This document shows, piece after piece, positions 20,031-31,703 of a stretch of DNA of 64,000 nucleotides. Source of the stretch: Neobacillus thermocopriae (lineage in GTDB: Bacteria; Bacillota; Bacilli; Bacillales; Cytobacillaceae); contig NZ_JAAIUV010000001.1 of the NCBI RefSeq assembly GCF_010975035.1, positions 124,001 to 188,000 on the forward strand, written 5' to 3'. The position numbers and the translations under genes were made by a program. Each line of letters starts with the position of its first letter. Positions within the stretch are counted from its first letter, which is position 1. The notes under the pieces are model-generated. The model was not told where the DNA came from, did no database searches, and saw only the letters and a list, made by a program, of their open reading frames with translations.

Positions 20031-21284
20031 TTAATAGAGTAAATATTTCTCACGAACATCCATAAATTTTTTTAATGCTGGCTCCCATTCTTTTTTCATT
20101 TGTTCAATAGATTTGCCTGCTTCGATCCCATCGCGGATGGAACCATTCCCTACGAGCAAGTCAAAGTGTGATATCCCTTTACTATCACGGGCCCGGAATT
20201 GGAAATCGTTCGGATACATGTCATGAATGGTCTTGACAATATACAATCCTGTTTCAAATGGCTTAAAGGCATTTCTGTTCGTTACATGAATTTGAATTCC
20301 ATGGTTTAACTGATTTACATTCTTGGAGGTTGTTGGTATGAATGAAGCAGAACGGAATTTCACACCTGGTAGATGATAGGAATTTAACCTTGTAGCTAAT
20401 TCATCTCCATTAATGAAAGGCGCCCCGATAAGTTCGAAAGGTCTAGTTGTTCCCCTACCTTCTGAAACATTGGCAGCCCCTTCAATTAAAGCAGCACCCG
20501 TATAAACAAGAGCTGTGTCCAAAGTAGGCATGTTTGGTGACGGCATCACAAAATGCAATGGTGTTTCATCATAATACATATTCCGCTTCCAACCTTCCAT
20601 TTTGACTACCGTTAAATCAGCGCCAATACCAAATTCCTTATTAAATAACTGAGCCAACTCTCCTACTGTCATACCATGGCGAACGGGGATGGCATACTGA
20701 CCGACAAAGGAAGCATATTTTTCCTCTAATATTGGCCCTTCTACTTTAGTACCACTAATTGGATTTGGGCGGTCAAGCACGATGAAAGGAATATTGTTCT
20801 CTTTTGCAGCCTCCATCGCTAAAGCCATTGTATAAATGTAAGTGTAAAAACGGGCGCCAACATCCTGAATATCAAATACCAATACATCAATATTGCTGAG
20901 CATTTCCGGTGTAGGTTTTCGCGTATTCCCGTAAAGACTGTATACAGGGAGACCTGTTTTTTCATCTATATAGGATTCCACATACTCACCGGCAGGCGCG
21001 CTCCCTCGGACACCATGCTCCGGACCATACAATGCTGTAAGTTCAAATTCCTTATGTTGATAAAACAAATCCACGATACTATTTAGTTCCTGGTCAACAC
21101 CAGTTGGATTCGTAATCAAGCCTACGCGTTTCCCTTTGATTAAGTCAATCCGGTCACGTAATAACACTTCTACACCTAAGCGGAACTTTTTATTATTTTT
21201 CTCTTTTTCATTTTTCGCAATGGCTGCCGTTACTGTTGATAGTACTAACAGAAGAGTGATCATTGCCATTAACCATTTCTTCAT
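20031..21284 (-). CDS. namZ: Exo-beta-N-acetylmuramidase NamZ (YbbC, DUF1343), secreted
   Basis: A 417-residue protein with an N-terminal signal peptide (MKKWLMAMITLLLVLSTVTA). The DUF1343 core shows VGLITNPTGVD, ALYGPEHGVRG, VFDIQDVGARFYTYIYTM and GRGTTRPFE. In B. subtilis this family (YbbC, renamed NamZ) removes MurNAc from non-reducing ends of wall glycans, including MurNAc-GlcNAc. Start: the frame opens at a TTG 8 codons earlier, but the ATG at 21284 is 5-6 bases after GGGGAGGGG. It is the last gene of the cluster, 31 bases after nagZ, as in B. subtilis. Confidence 0.92.
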   Translation of the reverse strand: MKKWLMAMITLLLVLSTVTAAIAKNEKEKNNKKFRLGVEVLLRDRIDLIKGKRVGLITNPTGVDQELNSIVDLFYQHKEFELTALYGPEHGVRGSAPAGEYVESYIDEKTGLPVYSLYGNTRKPTPEMLSNIDVLVFDIQDVGARFYTYIYTMALAMEAAKENNIPFIVLDRPNPISGTKVEGPILEEKYASFVGQYAIPVRHGMTVGELAQLFNKEFGIGADLTVVKMEGWKRNMYYDETPLHFVMPSPNMPTLDTALVYTGAALIEGAANVSEGRGTTRPFELIGAPFINGDELATRLNSYHLPGVKFRSASFIPTTSKNVNQLNHGIQIHVTNRNAFKPFETGLYIVKTIHDMYPNDFQFRARDSKGISHFDLLVGNGSIRDGIEAGKSIEQMKKEWEPALKKFMDVREKYLLY

Positions 21285-21315
21285 CCAAACCCCTCCCCTA
21301 TTTTTCAAAGAGTTT

Positions 21316-23385
21316 TTAATACCCTAATCCATGGCCAAAACCGTACATAACACTTCCATCATGATTATAAATCGTTACTGGCAGCTTTCCTGTTGGGGGA
21401 TTTTCACCAAAAAGGGTGTTTACTGACGCCGCAAAGCTGGCTGGGCGATAACCATATTGGACAAGATAAGCATCTACATTCGGGTAGGACATGACATCGT
21501 ATGGATTACGGATTCCTAAAGCAATAACCTTGGCATCGGTTTCATTAATGAGCTGATTGGTCATGACCATTTGGCTAGCACTTGGCTCCCTTCCACTCAC
21601 ACTAGAAGTATAAGTTCCGACAATGATATATTTCGCATCCTTCACTTGTTCGAGTTGAGCATTGGTCAGCTTTGTTTGTGTATTAATATAGGTAACATTT
21701 GTATGATGCTTTTTCACTTCATCCAAAAGTAAATTCACATAGTAGCCGGAATACCCTACAACAGCAATTTTGTCTTCTGGTACTGCCTTCATTGGGAGAA
21801 CTCCGTTATTTTTTACCAGTGTAATTGATTTTTCTGCGGCCTCTTTTTCAATCGCCTTATGCTCAGGTGAGCCGACTACTTGAAGAGCATGGGAAATCTT
21901 TTGATCAATGCTTTCTTCAACCTCTCTTTTAACAATTCCCCGATTTAATTTTAAGGTGAAAATCCGCTCGACAGACTGTTCAATTCTTTTCTCAGAAATT
22001 TCACCGGATTTCACTGCGTTATAAAGCCCATTAGCTACTACTTCTAGTCCGACAGGCATTAACACAATATCCGCTCCTGCTTTCACACTACGGATGGCGG
22101 CATCAACCGGACCGAAATGGTCAGCAATCGCATTCATGTTCATTGCATCGGTTATAATTACTCCTTCATATCCCATTTCCTCACGCATCAGTCCAGTTAA
22201 TACCTTGTGGGAAAGGGTCGCTGGAATCGCAATTTCCGTTCCATCTTTTTGAGAAACGGCTTTTGTCGGATCAATTTTCGGGAAAGTGACATGAGCCGTC
22301 ATAATCGCATCAATCCCTGCATCCATCGCCTGCTGGAAAGGATATAATTCAACTTGTTTCAAACGCTCCTTATCATGAGGCACTTCTGGTAATCCTAAAT
22401 GGGAGTCTACCGCTGTATCTCCATGCCCTGGAAAATGCTTGGCCGTTGCCGCTGTGCCGCTTTCCTGGAGCCCTTTAATATAAGCGTTGCCCATTTTTCC
22501 TACAAGCTCTGGATTTTCCCCAAAGGAACGCACTCCAATCACTGGATTATCCGGGTTATTATTGACATCAAGCACCGGCGCCAGATTCATATTAATGCCT
22601 AACGAGTGCAGTTCCTCACCAATGGCTCTTCCGACTTTTTCAGCTGTCTCTTCCGATCTTGTTGCTCCAAGCGCCATATTCCCGGAAAAATCAGTCCCTG
22701 ATTGGAGACGAGTAATAATACCGCCTTCTTGGTCAATCGTAATAAGCAAACCATATTTTTGTGCTACTTGTTGATAAGCATCCACTAACTTTGTTGTTTG
22801 TTCGGTTGTCACTACATTTTCGCGGAACAAGATAACCCCGCCAAGATGATAATCTTTTACAAGCTTGGCGATCTCATCATTCATTTCCGTAACGTTCTTT
22901 CCTTCCCATGTACGAAAATCCGGCATCAACATTTGCCCGACTTTTTCTTCTAGTGTCATGTGCTTCATTGCGTTTCCAATGACGTTATATCGAGAACCTT
23001 TTTCTTTTATGACGAGGATTTTATCTTGGTTTCCCTTCACTTCAATGGCTATTCGGTCAGTGAAATGACCATCGCTGACGGAAATAAACGTTTTCCCATT
23101 ATGACCGGTCAACGTAACTTCGCCATCTTTTACAGAAGCTACATTTTTATTGGAAGACTTCCAAGTGACGTCTGCAGCTAGCTTAAAATGACCATCCCCA
23201 AATATATGAAGTGGATTTAATAAAATTTTGTCGTCTTTCACCTCCCGTTTTACTTGAGGCACATTTAGGTCAATGACTAAATCCTTAATACTGGATGCCG
23301 CAACGGAGTCGGATACGGGAATACCAGTCAATAAGATCCCAATGGCCAAGCACGAAATCATGAAAGCTTTTAAAAATTTCCTCAT
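21316..23385 (-). CDS. nagZ: Secreted GH3 beta-N-acetylglucosaminidase NagZ with N-terminal Big-like domain
   Basis: A 689-residue protein: signal peptide 1-30, an Ig-like stretch at about 30-125 (VTWKSSNKNVASVKDGEVTL resembles Big_2), a GH3 barrel from about 140, and a GH3 C-terminal domain. The barrel has KHFPGHGDTAVDSH with the Asp-His acid/base dyad of Bacillus NagZ, and the nucleophile Asp in ITDAMNMNAI. It frees GlcNAc from muropeptides after peptide removal. It is about 45 residues longer than B. subtilis NagZ because of the N-terminal domain. AGGAGG precedes the ATG; amiE ends 26 bases upstream. Confidence 0.93.
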   Translation of the reverse strand: MRKFLKAFMISCLAIGILLTGIPVSDSVAASSIKDLVIDLNVPQVKREVKDDKILLNPLHIFGDGHFKLAADVTWKSSNKNVASVKDGEVTLTGHNGKTFISVSDGHFTDRIAIEVKGNQDKILVIKEKGSRYNVIGNAMKHMTLEEKVGQMLMPDFRTWEGKNVTEMNDEIAKLVKDYHLGGVILFRENVVTTEQTTKLVDAYQQVAQKYGLLITIDQEGGIITRLQSGTDFSGNMALGATRSEETAEKVGRAIGEELHSLGINMNLAPVLDVNNNPDNPVIGVRSFGENPELVGKMGNAYIKGLQESGTAATAKHFPGHGDTAVDSHLGLPEVPHDKERLKQVELYPFQQAMDAGIDAIMTAHVTFPKIDPTKAVSQKDGTEIAIPATLSHKVLTGLMREEMGYEGVIITDAMNMNAIADHFGPVDAAIRSVKAGADIVLMPVGLEVVANGLYNAVKSGEISEKRIEQSVERIFTLKLNRGIVKREVEESIDQKISHALQVVGSPEHKAIEKEAAEKSITLVKNNGVLPMKAVPEDKIAVVGYSGYYVNLLLDEVKKHHTNVTYINTQTKLTNAQLEQVKDAKYIIVGTYTSSVSGREPSASQMVMTNQLINETDAKVIALGIRNPYDVMSYPNVDAYLVQYGYRPASFAASVNTLFGENPPTGKLPVTIYNHDGSVMYGFGHGLGY

Positions 23386-23411
23386 CAGTTTCCTCCTCTT
23401 TTATCAAATAA

Positions 23412-25094
23412 TTAGTAATTACGTAACTGCCATTCATTTTTATCAAATTTTAATTCCACGGAATCGAGCTTCGGATTCAAAACATACCAGCCGCGACCAT
23501 TCACAGTGGAATCCGTATGATAAACAAAACGGAGCTTCTTAGCTTTACGCGATACATCGAACGTTAAGATTTCCCAGCCATTGCTTGTGCCGGAAAGTTC
23601 TGTGACCATTTGCCATTTGTCATCTATCCACATTTCCACCCGTCCATAATCGGCTTGATTTTCCATACGATACCATGTAGCAAAGGTAAGCTTCATATCT
23701 TTTGTTAAATGGAGATCCGTTTCCATCACACGATTCACAAGATCCCCATATCCGGCAAACCATGCCGAACTTTTACCTGGAATGGATACCGGAATGCTAT
23801 CTGCCACCTGCCTTGCAAACCATCTTCTTGGAGCATTAATGGATCCCATATTCCTGCTTGGATGAACACGATTGGTGAGAAGAATGGCAACCGTTTTGTT
23901 ATGGGGACTGACGACAATCGATGTACCAGTATAGCCTGTATGACCAAAAGATTCAGTTCCTTCAGATAAGGCATCCATGTACCAGCCTTGGCCTAGTTCC
24001 CAACCAAGACCATGGTCATTGCCTGGAAATGCTACATTTTGATTTTCCAGCAAAAGTTTTACCGTTTCGGGTTTTAGGATACGTTTTCCACCATATTTTC
24101 CATTATTGATAAAAATATGCGCTAGTTTTGCAAGGTCCTCTGCAGTTGAAAACACTCCGGCATGCCCGGCAACTCCATCAAGAGACCAAGCATTTTCATC
24201 ATGTACTTCCCCCCAAACTAATCCCCTGTTCGGAACAGACTGATATTCTGTCGCTGCAATACGTTTTTTCAAAGAAGCTGGCGGGTTGTACATGGTGTCC
24301 TTCATCCCTAATGGCTTTGTAATATGTTCCTTCACAAATTCATCCAGACGCTTACCGGATAGTCGCTCAATGAATGCCCCTAAAGTAATCATGTTGAGAT
24401 CACTATATTCATAGGCTGTACCCGGCTTACTTTTCAATGGCTGTTGAAAAACAAGCTGCAGTCGTTCATCACGGGAATTCCCCATCGTATAGAGCGGTAT
24501 CCAAGACGTAAATCCAGAGGTATGAGTCAGTAGTTGGCGAATCGTCACTGTCTCTTTCCCATTAACGGCAAATTCCGGAATATATTTGGCAACCGGGTCA
24601 TCCAGCTGAAACAAACCTTTCTCATAAAGCTGCATCACGGCTACAGAAGTGAAAATTTTACTGATGGAGGCAAGATCAAAAATGGTATCCTTCTTCATCA
24701 ATAAAGGTTGGTCTAATTTCGTAAACTGACCGTCTGCATAAATAACTGAATGACCATAAGCAGAGTGTTTAACGATTTTTCCTCCTCTTGCGACAAAGGC
24801 AACAGCACCCGGAAATAGTTTATTTTCAATGTTTTCTTGAATCATGGAGTCGATTTGTTGTAGTGGTGTAGCAACCATTCCTGCCCCTTTAGGCGAACTA
24901 GGGTGAAGCACACTGGTGACAGGGATGAATTCAGAATTCCATGTAAAAACAGGGTGAGGTTTTTCTGATTGGAATGGTTTCATTTCTTTCTTTTCAATGG
25001 TAGGAATAATCTTAGATTCACTGTTAGCAGAAACATGGGAGGTACATAATAATGCAGTACAGACTGAAGCAAGGACAATGGATTTTTTCCTCAT
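23412..25094 (-). CDS. amiE: AmiE-like secreted serine hydrolase (beta-lactamase fold) with C-terminal jelly-roll domain
   Basis: A 560-residue protein: signal peptide (ends near SHVSA-NS), a class C beta-lactamase/PBP-type domain at about 75-425 with SISK as the SxxK nucleophile and YSD as the second motif (YEYSDLNM), HTGYTG as a KTG-like box, and a C-terminal beta domain from about 455. That tail (FATWYRMENQADYGRVEMW, RFVYHTDSTVNGRGWYV) looks like the jelly-roll seen in immune inhibitor A proteins. B. subtilis AmiE (YbbE) in the same place cleaves MurNAc-L-Ala bonds and is over 100 residues shorter. Specificity is inferred from context. AAGGAGG precedes the ATG. Confidence 0.85.
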   Translation of the reverse strand: MRKKSIVLASVCTALLCTSHVSANSESKIIPTIEKKEMKPFQSEKPHPVFTWNSEFIPVTSVLHPSSPKGAGMVATPLQQIDSMIQENIENKLFPGAVAFVARGGKIVKHSAYGHSVIYADGQFTKLDQPLLMKKDTIFDLASISKIFTSVAVMQLYEKGLFQLDDPVAKYIPEFAVNGKETVTIRQLLTHTSGFTSWIPLYTMGNSRDERLQLVFQQPLKSKPGTAYEYSDLNMITLGAFIERLSGKRLDEFVKEHITKPLGMKDTMYNPPASLKKRIAATEYQSVPNRGLVWGEVHDENAWSLDGVAGHAGVFSTAEDLAKLAHIFINNGKYGGKRILKPETVKLLLENQNVAFPGNDHGLGWELGQGWYMDALSEGTESFGHTGYTGTSIVVSPHNKTVAILLTNRVHPSRNMGSINAPRRWFARQVADSIPVSIPGKSSAWFAGYGDLVNRVMETDLHLTKDMKLTFATWYRMENQADYGRVEMWIDDKWQMVTELSGTSNGWEILTFDVSRKAKKLRFVYHTDSTVNGRGWYVLNPKLDSVELKFDKNEWQLRNY

Positions 25095-25177
25095 AGCTCC
25101 TCCTTAACTCTAGCTTTCCGATCTGGACAAAGCTAAGAAATATTATTTACTATTTTTTAAGAAAGTATAAGATAATA

Positions 25178-25195
25178 GGTATAGTTATCTATACC
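25178..25195. promoter_or_regulatory. Inverted repeat between murQ and amiE
   Basis: GGTATAG-TTAT-CTATACC, perfect 7-bp arms with a 4-base spacer, in the 200-base gap between murQ and amiE. A TATACT lies just downstream on the minus strand (25168-25163 region), though with no good -35. It may be an operator for a promoter of the three secreted hydrolases, or simply a small hairpin. A third GGTATA copy lies near 25224. Confidence 0.35.
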
Positions 25196-25295
25196 ACTTT
25201 AGACCTACAACACCTCCGGAAAATAGGTATAAAGAATCAATAAATTTCAATTGGATCCATAATAATAAGAGCAAGCGGAAGGTTCCCACCTGCCA

Positions 25296-26225
25296 TCAGG
25301 TGAGATCCTTTGCAGCTTTTTGCCTTTGAAGCTGTTCCATTGCATTCGGAAAATGACCATGATGCTGTTTGAGAACGGTAATCGCCGTATCAAAATCAAT
25401 TTGAAATAAAACCATTAAAATCGCAGCTCTCGTATCCCCATTCGCCTTCTCATTTGCTTCTTTGGCCGCCGATTCATCCAAGCCGGTGATGTCTTGAATG
25501 ATGGAGATTGACCGTTTCCTCAGCTTTTCGTTCGTGGCTTGAACATTTACCATTAAATTTTTATATACCTTGCCCATTTTAATCATCGAAGCTGTCGAAA
25601 TCATATTTAATACCATTTTTTGTGCTGTTCCCGCTTTTAAGCGGGTAGATCCGGTAATAACTTCAGGCCCTACAGGAATTTCAATTGGATATTTAGCCAT
25701 CTTGGCTAATTCTGAACCATAATTGCACGCGATTCCGATCGTGAGAATATTTCGTTCATTTGCTCTTTCCACAGCTCCCAAAACGTAAGGTGTTCTACCA
25801 CTTGAGGCGATGCCAATTAACACATCCTTTGGCCCAAGCTGTTGATTGACTACCTCTCTTCCTGCCTCACGATCATCTTCCGCGTCTTCAACAGCATAGC
25901 GAATCGCCTTTTCTCCGCCAGCAATAATACCATTTACTAGATCATTGGTTACGCCAAAGGTTGGCGGACATTCAGAAGCATCCAATACGCCAAGTCGGCC
26001 ACTTGTTCCCGCTCCGATATAAAAGATCCTCCCCCCTTGCTTGAGCGATGTGACCACCGCATCTATGGCATCTTTGATTTGTGGCAAGGCTTTTTCTACC
26101 GCAAAGGCAACCTTTTGGTCCTCCTGATTCATCAACTGAATAATTTCCATAGTCGTAAATCGGTGCAAATTTTCTGAATTCTTATTTCGCATTTCAGTCA
26201 AAAGTCCTGGGCGAGTTACATCCAT
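25296..26225 (-). CDS. murQ: N-acetylmuramic acid 6-phosphate etherase MurQ
   Basis: A 309-residue SIS-domain lyase that splits the D-lactyl ether of MurNAc-6-phosphate to GlcNAc-6-phosphate and lactate in the cytoplasm. Seen: SLKQGGRIFYIGAGTSGRLG, the MurQ signature DASECPPTFGV near 90, and GIASSGRTPYVLGA. The C-terminal ~55 residues form the family's helical UBA-like end. GGAGGCATAGATT precedes the ATG. Its substrate is phosphorylated MurNAc, yet the cluster has an ABC importer and no PTS or kinase. Confidence 0.97.
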   Translation of the reverse strand: MDVTRPGLLTEMRNKNSENLHRFTTMEIIQLMNQEDQKVAFAVEKALPQIKDAIDAVVTSLKQGGRIFYIGAGTSGRLGVLDASECPPTFGVTNDLVNGIIAGGEKAIRYAVEDAEDDREAGREVVNQQLGPKDVLIGIASSGRTPYVLGAVERANERNILTIGIACNYGSELAKMAKYPIEIPVGPEVITGSTRLKAGTAQKMVLNMISTASMIKMGKVYKNLMVNVQATNEKLRKRSISIIQDITGLDESAAKEANEKANGDTRAAILMVLFQIDFDTAITVLKQHHGHFPNAMEQLQRQKAAKDLT

Positions 26226-26264
26226 AATCTATGCCTCCATTTAACAATGCCAAGGTATAAATCT

Positions 26265-27089
26265 TTATTTAACTGCACCAGCAGTCAAACCTTCCATAAA
26301 CTGTTTCGATGCTATAAAGAATAGAATGAGCATTGGCAAAGATGATAATGTCAATCCGGCAAATAGCGCACCCCAGTCAGCTGAATATTCACCAAACAAG
26401 CTTAGCATGCCGACAGGAATCGTCTTTTTCATCTCATTCGTGATAAAAATTAACGGGAAGAAAAAGTCATTCCATGACTGAATAAAATTAATAATCATAA
26501 CCGTACCAAGCGCTGGCCGCATTAATGGCAAAACGACATTCCATAAAATTCTAAGATCGCTAGCCCCGTCCATTCGGGCGGCTTCCTCTAACTCCATTGG
26601 CATCGTTCGGAAAAATCCAGTCAAAATTAAGATGGATAGTGGTATTCCTTGGGCAGTGTACATCAAAATAAGTGACCATAAAGAGTTTGTTAAACCAAGA
26701 CCCTTCATTAATATAAACAATGGCACAATGCCTAATTTAATCGGAATCATCATCCCCATTAAGAAAACGAAAAAGAGGATGTTATTCCACCAATAGGTAT
26801 ACCTAGCGATATAAAAAGCTGCTAGAGAAGTAGTAATCAATATAAGTAGGACGGAAACAACACTGACAAACACACTATTGTAAAAATACGTCATAAATGG
26901 AACTTGATCTAGCAGTTTCTCGTACGTTTGAAAATGAAAGCTTTTCGGCAATGATAGTGGGTTTGTAAAAATTTCTATTGTTGGTTTAAAGGAGGATACG
27001 ATCATCAGGATGATCGGATAAAGACTAATAGAAGCAAATAAAAAGGCAACGATATAATAGAATGACTTCATCCATATCGATTGTTTCAT
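26265..27089 (-). CDS. Sugar ABC transporter permease, MalG/CUT1 type
   Basis: A 274-residue membrane protein with six transmembrane segments and the cytoplasmic EAA loop EEAARMDGASDLRILWNVVLP near 185-205 that docks the ATPase. It resembles CUT1 inner-membrane components for oligosaccharides. It pairs with the permease at 27104 (14 bases between them) and is 39 bases before murQ, so MurNAc or a MurNAc-GlcNAc fragment is the likely cargo. This is inference from position. Confidence 0.92.
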   Translation of the reverse strand: MKQSIWMKSFYYIVAFLFASISLYPIILMIVSSFKPTIEIFTNPLSLPKSFHFQTYEKLLDQVPFMTYFYNSVFVSVVSVLLILITTSLAAFYIARYTYWWNNILFFVFLMGMMIPIKLGIVPLFILMKGLGLTNSLWSLILMYTAQGIPLSILILTGFFRTMPMELEEAARMDGASDLRILWNVVLPLMRPALGTVMIINFIQSWNDFFFPLIFITNEMKKTIPVGMLSLFGEYSADWGALFAGLTLSSLPMLILFFIASKQFMEGLTAGAVK

Positions 27090-27103
27090 GATTAGTACCC
27101 TCC

Positions 27104-28066
27104 CTACATTTCAACTTCTTTTTTCTTCATATAATTTAAAAAGAGCGCGGTAAATACACAGATAAAGAGAAATAGTACAACTGCTAGCGCCGATCCGAGT
27201 CCAATTGCTGTAGAATCCCCCGTCGCCCCGCCAAAGGCTAAACGATAGAAATACACAGCTAACGTATCGGTTGAACGATAGGGTTCTCCCTGGGACCCTT
27301 GCATAGCATAAACTAGTTCAAAGGCTTCAAATGATTGGATAAACGTCAGCACCGTCATAATCATGATGGATGGCATCATGAGCGGCATCATGATTCTCCT
27401 TAACATGGTCAAGCCTTTTGCTCCATCTAATCTTGCAGCTTCGATTAACTCTTTCGGAATCGACTGGAAACCAGCCAAAAAGATTAATATGGCAAACCCC
27501 AATCCAAACCAACAGTTTACGAGAATAATCGTCATTAAGGCCGTGTCTGGATCACCTAGCCATGCTTTCTTCCATGATTCCAATCCTAATTTACTAAGAA
27601 TGACATTTAAGGCCCCAAAATTTGGATTTAATATCAGCTTCCACAAAAATCCGACGACGATGACTGACAAAAGTCTTGGCAGAAAATAAGCCATTTTCAA
27701 TAATTCTGCGCCACGGATTTTTTGAAAGATAATAAAAGCAAGGAAAAAAGCCAAGCCATTCTGGACAACCATTTGAACAACAAAATATAGGACGTTATGG
27801 CCAAAAGCATTCCAGAACATGCCGCTAAACGGCTCAAGGGTAAAGAGATTTTTATAATTTTCCAGCCCGACAAATGCTTGTTTTTGAATTCCCTTCCAGT
27901 CGTAAAAACTGTAAGTAATGGCTGCTACCAATGGATAAACAATGAACAGGCCATAAATAAAAAGGGCGGGAATAGGGAAGAGATGAATACCCCATCTCTT
28001 CTGTTTTTTCCGCTTTTTCTGCTTCACAGTCTCCGTTTGGATCATCGTTTGCATATTCTCCGCCAC
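27104..28066 (-). CDS. Sugar ABC transporter permease, MalF/CUT1 type
   Basis: A 320-residue membrane protein with a basic N-terminal tail (KQKKRKKQKRW), six transmembrane segments and the EAA loop EAARLDGAKGLTMLRRIMMP near 220. It forms the heterodimeric pore with the next permease. In B. subtilis this position of the cluster holds the PTS permease gene murP, which is absent here. Confidence 0.92.
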   Translation of the reverse strand: MAENMQTMIQTETVKQKKRKKQKRWGIHLFPIPALFIYGLFIVYPLVAAITYSFYDWKGIQKQAFVGLENYKNLFTLEPFSGMFWNAFGHNVLYFVVQMVVQNGLAFFLAFIIFQKIRGAELLKMAYFLPRLLSVIVVGFLWKLILNPNFGALNVILSKLGLESWKKAWLGDPDTALMTIILVNCWFGLGFAILIFLAGFQSIPKELIEAARLDGAKGLTMLRRIMMPLMMPSIMIMTVLTFIQSFEAFELVYAMQGSQGEPYRSTDTLAVYFYRLAFGGATGDSTAIGLGSALAVVLFLFICVFTALFLNYMKKKEVEM

Positions 28067-28122
28067 CTACTTTTTATTCGCTTTCTGAAGGACCATTTCA
28101 ACCATGGTTCTCCTATTTTTCA

Positions 28123-29415
28123 TTATTGAAATGGTTTAAACCAAGTTTCTGCATTTTCCTGTACACTTTTTGCTACGCCTTCTGGGGTTTGTTTACCTAA
28201 ATACATTCCTTGAAGCTCGTTTTCCAAGGTCGTTTTGGAAGTAGGGTTACCGCCTGCAAAGTATACAACCATCATATAAGGGGTAGACATTTTCTCAACT
28301 GCTTCACCTAAAGACGTTACTAATTCATCCTTAGCCTTCACTCCAGGCATTGCACTGATCATTTTAAATTCGTTTGTGAACAACTCGGCAAACTCTTTCG
28401 TTGCTAAAAACTCTAAGAACAATTTTGCTTCTTCTTTATGCTTAGATTTTGCATTCAAGGCGAAGGAGCCATCTACCCAAGCTGTAATCGTTGGTTCTTT
28501 TCCAATCGCAGATGGCATTGGGAAAAATCCTATTTCGATATCAGGATTTAGGCTGCGCACGACCTCAATTTCCCAGCTTCCCATAGGGAACATAGCGGCT
28601 TGACCGGTTGCAAATAGTGTACGGATATCCTCCATACCAAGACCTTCATAGTTATCAGGGAAGTATTTCTTCAACTGATCCATCGCTTTAATGGAATTGA
28701 CAAATTCAGTTGATTCAAAGTTCGTTTCACCCTTCGTTATTTTTTCAACAAATTCATTACCGCCGTAATGGGCAGGACCGATAATTCCATGAGCCGCTGA
28801 CAATAGCCAACCTTCCTTCGCGCCAAGGGCGATTGGAATGATGTTTTTGGATTTCAATGTTTCATTTAGCTTGATAAACTCATCCCATGTTTTCGGTTCT
28901 TTTAAATTATGCTCTTTAAAGATTTTTTTGTTATAAAAGATTTGGGTGGTACTCATGTTGAGAGGGACGCCATATTGCTTACCATCGGAACCTTTTGATG
29001 CCTGAAGGGCTGTCTCCGGGAATGCATCCAATCCAGTCAAACCGTCAAGTGGTTCCAGATACCCAGCATCCGCAAGGGCAATTCCAGGTGCATATGGTCT
29101 AAGATGGATAATGTCCGGGCCTTCACCGCTTTGAAGTGCCGTATTCAGAATGGTGTTGTATTCTGTGTTTTTGGAAGGTTTAAATTCGACTTTAATATCA
29201 GGATGTTTTTTGTTGAAGGCTTCAATCACTTTCTCGTATTTGGCAGTATCCTCTGTTCTCCAACTACCAATGGTCAGTGTGACTGCATCTGCTTTTTCAT
29301 CTTCTTTAGAGGCATTTGATTTTTTCGAAGTTTCTTTTTCACTTGAACATGCTGTGGCAAACATCAAGATGAATGCAAATACCCCAAATAACCAAGCTTT
29401 CCCCATCTTGTTCAT
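28123..29415 (-). CDS. Sugar ABC transporter substrate-binding lipoprotein (cluster 1)
   Basis: A 430-residue lipoprotein: signal peptide with lipobox FATACSS (Cys at about 23), then a two-lobed SBP_bac_1 fold (TLTIGSWRTEDTAKYEKVIEAF; GEGPDIIHLRP; LLSAAHGIIGPAHYGG; GQAAMFPMGSWE). It captures the sugar outside the membrane for the two permeases. No ATP-binding gene is nearby, so it probably relies on a general ATPase such as MsmX, as other CUT1 importers of Bacillus do. GGAGGA is about 10 bases from the ATG. Ligand assignment to MurNAc rests on cluster context. Confidence 0.9.
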   Translation of the reverse strand: MNKMGKAWLFGVFAFILMFATACSSEKETSKKSNASKEDEKADAVTLTIGSWRTEDTAKYEKVIEAFNKKHPDIKVEFKPSKNTEYNTILNTALQSGEGPDIIHLRPYAPGIALADAGYLEPLDGLTGLDAFPETALQASKGSDGKQYGVPLNMSTTQIFYNKKIFKEHNLKEPKTWDEFIKLNETLKSKNIIPIALGAKEGWLLSAAHGIIGPAHYGGNEFVEKITKGETNFESTEFVNSIKAMDQLKKYFPDNYEGLGMEDIRTLFATGQAAMFPMGSWEIEVVRSLNPDIEIGFFPMPSAIGKEPTITAWVDGSFALNAKSKHKEEAKLFLEFLATKEFAELFTNEFKMISAMPGVKAKDELVTSLGEAVEKMSTPYMMVVYFAGGNPTSKTTLENELQGMYLGKQTPEGVAKSVQENAETWFKPFQ

Positions 29416-29531
29416 GAATTTTTGGTTCCTCCTTCATTGAAATATATTTTTTAAAATCCTCGTGTGAACGAGGTTTGTAACCAGATGGAGTGTTCAGATG
29501 GTGATATTTCAGAAGGTGCAGCTATCATTAT

Positions 29532-30386
29532 TTATTTTTTCTTAAAAACATTTACTGCTTTGCGGGTTCGTTCCAAAGCTTCTACATGGGTATCCTGATT
29601 GGATTTTGTGACGCCGAGAAACAAAATATCAATGACATTGAGTTGCGCAATACGTGAACTCGTGGCCCCGCTTCGAACATTTCGCTCTAAAGAAGTGGTA
29701 AATAATTTAACATCTGCTAATGAGGAAACAGGGTTATCCCCTGATTTGGTCAAAGAGATAATTTGGGCACCATTTGACTTAGCAACGGCTAATGATTCAA
29801 TAATATCTTTTGTCTGACCGCTATAGGAAATGCCAAAAGCCACATCCTGTCCAGTCAGATTCGCCGCAACTGTAACTTGGGTATCCCCATCCAATGCGGC
29901 TTCACACCAATGGCTGATCCGGGTTAGTTTTTGTTTGAAGTCCATCGCAACAATGGCAGAAGCACCGATTCCAAAGACAGCTACTTTTCTAGCATTCGAG
30001 ATAAGAGAAACCGCCTTTTCTAATTCGTCTGCTGATAGTACGAGAGTCGTATTTTGGATGGATTGTATATTATTTTGCGACACAGATTGAATAAACGCCT
30101 GAATGGAATCATCTTTAGGAATATCTTCATACAGACTATATTCACTTTCAGATTTCGCCAATTCATAAGCAATTTTTAGCTTCAATTCTTGGAAACCTTT
30201 ACATTTTAATACCTTTGATAAACGAACAATGGTGGCTTCGCTAACTTTCGCTTTTTCTGCCAATTTCTGAACAGACATATTCACAGCTTCTTGTGGATTT
30301 TCAAGGATGAATTCAGCCGCCTTTCGTTCGGAAGGCTTAAACATATGCATGCTTTCTTGGATAAATAGTATTTCCGCACTTTTCAT
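29532..30386 (-). CDS. murR: RpiR-family transcriptional regulator MurR (HTH plus SIS)
   Basis: A 284-residue regulator: N-terminal HTH_6 (about 1-77; VQKLAEKAKVSEATIVRLSK) and a C-terminal SIS domain (about 125-260; VAVFGIGASAIVA, AFGISYSGQTKDIIE) that would sense a sugar phosphate such as MurNAc-6-P. It heads the cluster. The open frame begins with a TTG at 30389; the ATG at 30386 is 7 bases after AGGGTG. Three GAAACATT/AATGTTTC half-sites lie 45-92 bases upstream, so autoregulation is likely. The name follows B. subtilis MurR (YbbH). Confidence 0.88.
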   Translation of the reverse strand: MKSAEILFIQESMHMFKPSERKAAEFILENPQEAVNMSVQKLAEKAKVSEATIVRLSKVLKCKGFQELKLKIAYELAKSESEYSLYEDIPKDDSIQAFIQSVSQNNIQSIQNTTLVLSADELEKAVSLISNARKVAVFGIGASAIVAMDFKQKLTRISHWCEAALDGDTQVTVAANLTGQDVAFGISYSGQTKDIIESLAVAKSNGAQIISLTKSGDNPVSSLADVKLFTTSLERNVRSGATSSRIAQLNVIDILFLGVTKSNQDTHVEALERTRKAVNVFKKK

Positions 30387-30429
30387 CAAACTTCACCCTA
30401 TACTAAGTCCTAATCCGATTATATTAAAT

Positions 30430-30478
30430 AATGTTTCATAATATCAACAATTTTCTGAAACATTATTACAAATGTTTC
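30430..30478. promoter_or_regulatory. Candidate MurR operators: three GAAACATT/AATGTTTC half-sites
   Basis: AATGTTTC at 30430-30437, GAAACATT at 30457-30464 and AATGTTTC at 30471-30478. The last two form a perfect inverted repeat with a 6-base spacer; the first and second form another with a 19-base spacer. RpiR-family regulators commonly bind GAAA/TTTC-type dyads. The only gene nearby in the right orientation is murR. Confidence 0.55.
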
Positions 30479-30644: not shown

Positions 30645-31586
30645 TTAATTACACGTTCCGTGCGGACTCGGACAGCCCCTTGTTTCTTTCTCCACCTGGA
30701 TAGTGCTATGTTCTATGTGAAATTCATCGTGAAGAATTTTTTGCGATTGAGCTAAAATTTCATCATGTTGTGCTTCATCAGCAATCGTGATATGGCAACT
30801 TAAAACTGGATAACCGGAAGTAATTGTCCAGATGTGCAAGTCATGTACTTCCTTCACGAATGGTATACGGCCAAGCGCAGCCTTCACTTGATTCATATCA
30901 ATCTGCGTCGGCGCCCCCTCCATCAACACATGAAAAGAATCCTTTGTCACTCGGTATCCACTAATTAAAATTAATACGGCAACAATGATACTAGCTATCG
31001 GGTCAGCGATTCCCCAGTCAAAAAACATAATGAATAAAGAAGCAATAATCGCTCCAAAAGAACCAAGCATATCACCAAGCACATGTAAGAAAGCACTTCT
31101 GACATTTAGGTTCTCATCCTTATCCCCACTCATCAGAATCCAGGCTGCCACGATGTTCACCAATAAACCTGTCACAGAAATCATTAACATCCCCATACTT
31201 TGAATTTCCGGAGGATGGAAAAATCGTACTATAGCTTCGTACAATATATAAATGGAAATGAGTATCAGAGTTAACCCATTTAAAGCGGCAGCAATAATTT
31301 CAAACCGTTTATAGCCATATGTTTTTTCCTGAGAAACTTGTTTTTCACCAAGCTTAATCGCGAAAAAACTCAATCCTAAAGCAGCCGCGTCACTTAGCAT
31401 ATGACCTGCATCTGATAATAGTGCCAAGCTATTGGTTAACAATCCTCCGATCACTTCGACCACCATAAATGACGCAATTAAGATGAAGGAACTCAATAAA
31501 GCTTTTTTATTACTCGTATGAGCATGCCCATGTGAGTGGCCGTGATGATGCCCATGTGAATGACCATGATGATGATGGTGCCCCAT
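30645..31586 (-). CDS. czcD: Cation diffusion facilitator CzcD (Zn/Co/Cd/Ni efflux)
   Basis: A 313-residue CDF exporter. It opens with a His-rich tail (about 15 His in the first 26 residues, e.g. GHHHHHGHSHGHHHGHSHG), has six transmembrane segments, metal-site motifs HMLSDAAAL and HVLGDMLGS (HxxxD in TM2 and TM5), and a C-terminal metallochaperone-like domain. It uses the proton gradient to expel divalent metals. The open frame is 30 codons longer, but the ATG at 31586 has GGGGGGA 4-5 bases upstream and matches the family start. Two ArsR-type operators overlap its promoter. Confidence 0.93.
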   Translation of the reverse strand: MGHHHHHGHSHGHHHGHSHGHAHTSNKKALLSSFILIASFMVVEVIGGLLTNSLALLSDAGHMLSDAAALGLSFFAIKLGEKQVSQEKTYGYKRFEIIAAALNGLTLILISIYILYEAIVRFFHPPEIQSMGMLMISVTGLLVNIVAAWILMSGDKDENLNVRSAFLHVLGDMLGSFGAIIASLFIMFFDWGIADPIASIIVAVLILISGYRVTKDSFHVLMEGAPTQIDMNQVKAALGRIPFVKEVHDLHIWTITSGYPVLSCHITIADEAQHDEILAQSQKILHDEFHIEHSTIQVEKETRGCPSPHGTCN

Positions 31587-31703
31587 GTAATCCCCCCTAT
31601 AAAACCTTTTTCTTTCTCTCTTTTTAATAGATGTAAACCGAAAAAATTCCATTAAAACTAGTTTCTTCGAATACAACCAATTTTATAAAAGATCTATTGC
31701 TTC

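Follow-up and report, generated by a model that had tools for sequence, protein, structure and literature searches.

An ABC importer encoded beside murQ in Neobacillus thermocopriae points to phosphotransferase-independent salvage of N-acetylmuramic acid

How does a bacterium that keeps MurQ, the etherase acting on N-acetylmuramic acid (MurNAc) 6-phosphate, obtain its substrate when the transporter MurP is missing? The question is raised by a gene cluster of Neobacillus thermocopriae (contig NZ_JAAIUV010000001.1, positions 124,001 to 188,000; this whole stretch of 64,000 nucleotides is the window), which spans window positions 20031-30389 on the minus strand and runs from murR to namZ. The original prediction, made from the DNA letters, had listed murR, a binding-protein gene, two permease genes, murQ, an amiE-like gene, nagZ and namZ, and all eight are confirmed in place and on that strand. 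We take namZ to be the gene called ybbC in Bacillus subtilis. The arrangement resembles the B. subtilis murQRP-amiE-nagZ-ybbC cluster, which, in the account drawn on here (PMC5061867), unites murQ, murR, amiE, nagZ and ybbC. Unlike that cluster, which includes murP for an EIIBC protein of the phosphotransferase system (PTS), the window carries genes for a substrate-binding protein (SBP) and two ATP-binding cassette (ABC) permeases in its place, and the kinase is encoded separately.

The answer favored here, with a probability of roughly 0.8, is PTS-independent salvage, in which unphosphorylated MurNAc, or a peptide-bearing form of it, is taken up by the ABC importer, phosphorylated by a MurK-type kinase and passed to MurQ. 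This reading is built on gene content: the genome lacks MurP and AnmK and holds a kinase that in relatives is linked to both the importer and murQ.

The window's assembly (3.2 Mb, 54 contigs, 99.97% complete) encodes seven EIIC proteins by PF02378 profile search, typed by model scores as glucose, N-acetylglucosamine (GlcNAc), a second GlcNAc-type, trehalose, lactose/cellobiose family, mannitol and fructose transporters, and none of the seven is MurP. The GlcNAc EIIC adjoins nagA and nagB, and the trehalose EIIC adjoins phosphotrehalase and trehalose repressor genes, all over their cut-offs. At E 1e-30 the MurP model picks out a single protein, the trehalose transporter (136-137 bits, cut-off 516), whereas MurP-like proteins beside murQ elsewhere in the family score 262-344 bits. 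The genome search called for with the original prediction thus finds no MurP. AnmK (PF03702) has no match in the genome, the same model being positive in 5 of 14 controls, and murQ is the sole full-length copy, with three further partial matches at 24-27 bits. Entry of MurNAc through a GlcNAc PTS, the ABC genes being incidental, is very improbable: the genome does hold two nag-type PTS systems, GlcNAc-type PTS proteins might pass MurNAc, and murQ lies near a nag-type PTS gene in five family genomes (L165-L169), but both nag PTS loci here are on contigs other than that of murQ (C7 and C23), and it is the ABC genes that stand beside murQ.

The original prediction contained no kinase step; its importer reading is supported, and what it missed is a MurK-type kinase, located elsewhere in this genome and within the operon in relatives. 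A PF01869 search of the genome finds one full-length BadF-type kinase and three weak partial matches. The gene (C1:253346-254344; L016:10347-11345) lies ∼103 kb away from murQ; the next gene, 36 bp further on, encodes an AmiE paralogue (AmiE2) without a signal-like start. For both this kinase and the in-operon kinase type of relatives, the closest PDB match is a solved chain named ‘MurNAc/GlcNAc kinase’ (the listing names no organism); against the NCBIfam NagK model the protein scores 100 bits (cut-off 370). The protein is a candidate MurNAc kinase of MurK type. Without MurP and AnmK, two known sources of the MurNAc-6-phosphate that the only etherase requires, and with such a kinase present, what the importer brings in is most likely unphosphorylated MurNAc or a compound converted to MurNAc once in the cytosol. 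Another gene in the vicinity of the kinase, at a distance of 3.6 kb, is of the PRK02947 type (L016:14993-15733).

In the proposed route, NagZ, AmiE and NamZ would be secreted and would trim muropeptides to MurNAc outside the cell, and the lipoprotein SBP with its two permeases would import unphosphorylated MurNAc or peptide-bearing MurNAc. The parts of a CUT1 importer are all present (an SBP_bac_1 protein, two BPD_transp_1 permeases and a MalK-type ATPase), their pairing being presumptive: the cluster contains no ATPase gene, and the lone ATPase of the genome with a MalK-type OB domain (OB_MalK), which is over the UgpC-subfamily cut-off, sits on another contig (C7:43988). Sharing of one MalK-type ATPase among several importers is known from MsmX of B. 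subtilis, and this shared MalK/UgpC-type protein would power the importer. The BadF-type kinase would then phosphorylate MurNAc in the cytosol, the neighboring AmiE2 could strip residual peptide, MurQ would remove lactate, NagA and NagB would finish the pathway, and MurR would control the operon.

A survey of 193 family genomes, the window genome included as G000, places this arrangement in context. murQ is present in 125 of them, the SBP at ≥78% identity in 7 (G116, an eighth genome, offers no more than a 50% relative), and 30 carry the kinase at E 1e-20 or better. In 107 genomes there are MurP-like proteins at E 1e-60, and 102 of these genomes are counted as having MurP by a threshold of 260 bits, chosen after a gap was seen between 262 and 241 bits (100 genomes), with two truncated matches added (G093, G167). 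The curated MurP cut-off is reached by none of the 193; among controls B. subtilis falls below it and only one control exceeds it. Among the 15 murQ regions retrieved as presumably of MurP type, 14 have a PTS gene next to murQ. The SBP gene adjoins murQ in six of its seven genomes, namely the window genome and five others with orthologues at 78-86% (G121, G131, G029, G030, G059); the seventh, G105 (SBP 83-84%, not beside murQ), is excluded from the six. MurP is found in 0/6 of these and in 102/119 of the other murQ genomes (17/119 without; Fisher p 2e-5 for the importer and 7e-7 for the kinase, both ignoring relatedness). The original prediction would have counted against itself the loss of the importer from most relatives that keep murQ beside murR. 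Taken literally this is the case, as the importer stands beside murQ in 6 of 125 murQ genomes; that argument was rejected, because most of the others carry MurP, and the sparse occurrence reads as replacement rather than as refutation.

Two genomes counted without MurP, G070 and G079, have MurP pieces beside murQ, so that 21 rather than 23 murQ genomes lack it. Six of the 21 have the importer beside murQ, six more have a kinase at ≥35%, five have a GlcNAc-type PTS gene near murQ, one (G152) has another ABC importer beside murQ, and two (G028, G109) have no transporter recognized by the reference set; the last, G174, has a murQ fragment at a contig end, and its region was not fetched. G121 and G131 share the window order murR-SBP-permA-permB-murQ-amiE-nagZ-namZ (loci L029, L031), and in G131 a kinase lies in a second murQ cluster (L032). 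G029, G030 and G059 have the order murR-amiE2-SBP-permA-permB-murK-murQ (L025, L027, L028), which places the kinase within the operon; the window murR is 79-80% identical to the murR of these operons.

A scan of named genomes, one per species, extends the linkage beyond the survey. The loci considered are the best 80 of at least 442 confirmed, and murQ linkage was scored by tblastn at ≥120 bits in the fetched flanks, some of which are shorter than 10 kb. Among these best 80, murQ lies in the flanks of 15/15 SBPs at ≥54% identity, 0/2 at 48%, 3/8 at 33-39% (Clostridiales, Treponema, Devosia) and 0/55 at ≤32%. At least five of the loci are survey genomes (L064 = G131, L065 = G059, L073 = G029, L079 = G105, L084 = G116) and two pairs share a species name (L067/L070, L069/L072), and therefore the counts are not independent. 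The association of murQ with the importer is not due to chance, since the window order recurs in L029 and L031 and murQ flanks all 15 close SBP relatives. The Treponema MurQ passes TIGR00274, and the Devosia protein is only MurQ-like (38%).

In a tree of 80 SBPs, from which the Devosia row (L091), below the length limit, was the one of 81 dropped, the window SBP and the 15 closely murQ-linked SBPs form one clade of 16 (support 99/91), nested in a clade of 18 rows (100/98) that adds two Neobacillus paralogues not linked to murQ. The window protein thus belongs to a supported murQ-linked clade, which together with the lack of MurP supports the original proposal that unphosphorylated MurNAc, or a fragment containing it, would enter by ABC transport. 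Arg106 and Tyr108 are found in 16/16 linked SBPs and 3/3 distant linked ones, and in 2% and 0%, respectively, of the 55 others. By comparison with maltose-binding protein, this stretch is presumably near the ligand pocket, where Arg106 might contact the carboxylate of the lactyl group. In the rhizobial relatives, position 106 is Lys or His; in these loci (36-37%; L081, L082, L083), PIG-L-like and PRK02947-type sugar isomerase-domain matches occur, with no murQ match. The SBP model matches include NgcE (87 bits, cut-off 400), and the chitin-oligosaccharide binder NagB2 is among its PDB relatives, as expected if the importer carried GlcNAc or chitin-type sugars and merely shared a regulator with murQ. 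That possibility is quite improbable, as the SBP meets no equivalog cut-off, the genome already has its two GlcNAc-type PTS systems, and in relatives the importer is linked to murQ, murK and amiE2.

A gene order with the kinase inside the operon is seen again in Pseudalkalibacillus (L067, L070), Alkalihalobacillus (L071), Thalassobacillus (L069, L072), Cytobacillus citreus (L073), Bacillus sp. S/N-304-OC-R1 (L065) and Paenibacillus agricola (L074), with murK between permease B and murQ in L025, L027, L028, L067, L069-L072 and L074. Fredinandcohnia quinoae (L066) has the importer (77%) before a kinase gene, murQ, amiE2 and a PIG-L gene, its kinase being of the window genome's type (46%, compared with 30-35% for the in-operon type). 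Sutcliffiella (L068), Lysinibacillus (L078) and Paenibacillus L075-L077 combine importer, amiE2 and murQ with no kinase match in the flanks, and BadF-family genes are present in all four of these genomes that were searched (L076 not among them). Across 18 importer genomes, a BadF-family gene over the cut-off is found in 18/18 and no MurP-grade match in 17/18. The best BadF match of G121 (L146) lies among genes reading like CoA dehydratase genes. In Pseudalkalibacillus hwajinpoensis (L067:4672-14963), murP-mupG-murQ adjoins murR-amiE2-SBP-permA-permB-murK-murQ, giving both routes and two etherases.

The recurrence of amiE2 bears on what is imported. That the importer carries MurNAc-L-Ala or MurNAc-peptide rather than free MurNAc, with the cytosolic AmiE paralogue freeing the sugar, is a possibility to be taken seriously, although not the one we favor. 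The AmiE2 proteins lack a signal-like N-terminus and keep the SxxK, YSD and GHTG[YF]TGT motifs in the 10 proteins inspected (YSD not found in L069), amiE2 is present in 9/9 murK-holding named loci at ≥54% SBP identity (L065-L067, L069-L074) and adjoins murK in the window genome, and the side-by-side murP and ABC sets of L067 suggest different substrates. Conversely, the clusters of the window, L029 and L031 encode the secreted AmiE and lack amiE2, so that peptide would come off outside, and the distant loci with a kinase-like match (L080, L085, L086) show no amiE2. The frequency of AmiE2 with preserved motifs suggests that some peptide-bearing MurNAc may enter. The wider proposal, a dedicated ABC importer for peptide-bearing MurNAc with a cytosolic AmiE-type amidase and MurK, which would accompany or replace MurP widely in Bacillales and have more distant counterparts in Treponema, Clostridiales and Devosia, is tentative and we regard it as doubtful. 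Import of a MurNAc-GlcNAc or GlcNAc-MurNAc disaccharide split inside the cell is unlikely: Lysinibacillus (L158) and G121 (L030) do have a MurK-like kinase next to MupG, and S. aureus MurP takes MurNAc-GlcNAc (PMC6262408), but the window's secreted NagZ and NamZ would split such disaccharides outside.

Besides the possible passage of MurNAc through GlcNAc-type PTS proteins, several findings weigh against uptake of unphosphorylated MurNAc followed by MurK and MurQ. The kinase stands outside the window operon, and, BadF being a broad family, its presence alone is weak evidence and linkage to murQ the stronger. The GGW stretch of the kinase is common to human NAGK, and it carries His where most others carry Asn; reading MurK specificity from the residues named for Tannerella MurK was abandoned, as within this subfamily they do not distinguish kinases for MurNAc from those for GlcNAc. 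G121 shares the cluster of the window but offers no kinase closer than 27-29%, and this distant one lies within a second murQ cluster with AnmK and MupG; G105 retains SBP and permeases without murQ beside them. Arg106 and Tyr108 occur also in the two unlinked 48% paralogues, and the inverted repeat over the murR promoter (Table 1) has no copy upstream of the genome's BadF kinase. P. hwajinpoensis L067 is the exception among the 18 importer genomes, carrying both importer and MurP, and four family genomes (G036, G054, G055, G087) have MurP plus a kinase at ≥35%; the routes are therefore not mutually exclusive. In G054 and G087 the kinase gene has amiE2 and the genes of a distant ABC importer (SBP 22-23%, permeases 32-37%) as neighbors.

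The closest published logic is that of Tannerella forsythia, in which MurNAc enters by a non-PTS transporter and then meets a kinase and an etherase: one operon encodes MurK, MurQ and the transporter MurT, a member of the sodium symporter superfamily, and an E. coli mutant in murP is rescued by MurT together with the kinase (PMC5790795). The window differs in having a binding-protein ABC importer, and TfMurK is a shorter, distant kinase; the transporter-MurK-MurQ logic is thus already published for Tannerella and is found here with another transporter class. The locus of Clostridium acetobutylicum may hold an ABC system as well. The MurK of that species acts on MurNAc and GlcNAc (PMC5790795), and the PDB chain that both kinase types here match best is named MurNAc/GlcNAc kinase. 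The S. aureus mupG-murQ-murP-murR cluster shares the MurQ/MurR core and differs from the window in PTS uptake of MurNAc-GlcNAc and cleavage by MupG (PMC6262408). Agrobacterium YejBEF-YepA likewise imports peptidoglycan fragments by ABC transport, as the muropeptide importer of bacteria lacking AmpG, with no operon link to murQ seen in the portion of the source used (PMC9790009). In the open-licence literature searched, an ABC version of the MurNAc-transporter/MurK/MurQ route was not found.

Such an importer, by delivering unphosphorylated sugar, would alter the energetics and the possible substrates, among which could be peptide-bearing fragments perhaps closed to a PTS, and it would account for wall salvage in bacilli that have MurQ and no MurP. 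The same question arises in S. coelicolor, which has MurQ without MurP, and in mycobacteria, whose MurNAc transporter is described as unknown (PMC13041923).

Table 1. Genes and candidate promoter of the murR-namZ cluster (window positions).
Feature	Position	Strand	Evidence
Putative murR promoter, TTGATA-18-TATAAT	30418..30467	-	Overlapped by exact 11-bp inverted repeat AATAATGTTTC / GAAACATTATT
murR-like RpiR/SIS regulator	29532..30389	-	HTH_6 and SIS; in-frame ATG at 30386
CUT1-type lipoprotein binding protein (SBP)	28123..29415	-	SBP_bac_1; lipoprotein-like N-terminus
Permease A	27104..28066	-	BPD_transp_1; 80-85% identity in relatives
Permease B	26265..27089	-	BPD_transp_1; 86-90% identity in relatives
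murQ, MurNAc-6-phosphate etherase	25296..26225	-	TIGR00274, 389 bits (cut-off 302)
AmiE-like S12 hydrolase, predicted secreted	23412..25094	-	Beta-lactamase and InhA-like_MAM domains; signal-like N-terminus; SxxK, YSD and GHTGYTGT motifs
GH3 NagZ-like N-acetylglucosaminidase, predicted secreted	21316..23385	-	GH3 N and C domains
NamZ exo-N-acetylmuramidase, predicted secreted	20031..21308	-	NamZ_N 317 bits, NamZ_C 186 bits

The gene calls of Table 1 differ in firmness. The murR end originally given, 30386, is the in-frame ATG inside the longer open reading frame; the product scores 132 bits against the E. coli MurR equivalog model (cut-off 408), and the name MurR therefore rests on position. 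The NagZ-like protein, at 201 bits against NF003740, is just short of the curated NagZ-type cut-off of 207. Secretion of AmiE, NagZ and NamZ was read from strongly hydrophobic signal-like N-termini rather than from a signal-peptide predictor. The MAM domain match of the AmiE-like protein is C-terminal (4.9e-9). Intergenic gaps are 7-116 bp throughout, except for 201 bp between murQ and amiE, so that a single transcript is not certain.

The inverted repeat over the murR promoter, whose two arms have no other exact copy in the window, is a candidate MurR operator. An operator shared across relatives was not established: a TTTC-(13-18)-GAAA scan of 13 upstream regions matched in two only (L027, L028) and in 3.6% of shuffled regions, and it missed the window's own copy (spacing 19) and also matched one upstream of amiE. 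Rfam gave no RNA element at the gathering threshold, and scans for promoters and terminators gave counts as expected by chance (29 against 29.7 and 11 against 10.0).

Upstream of murR, the window encodes a CDF metal transporter with a His-rich N-terminus (30645-31676). In G105 (L033) the importer genes likewise lie near a czcD-like gene (85%), with murR and murQ elsewhere, murQ being with a kinase (L034). A second muramyl cluster (L032, L034, L036, L038, L039, L041, L042) has the order murK, GNAT, murQ, amiE2, PIG-L deacetylase, NagZ-like protein without signal peptide and AnmK, followed by another SBP (26-30%) in L032, L034, L036 and L038; the GNAT, PIG-L and AnmK names are taken from L034, L036 has no GNAT-sized reading frame, and L042 ends within nagZ. 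Finally, a 793-residue protein that matches no Pfam family at E 1e-8 is encoded between a distant ABC importer and murQ (L164:4233-6614).
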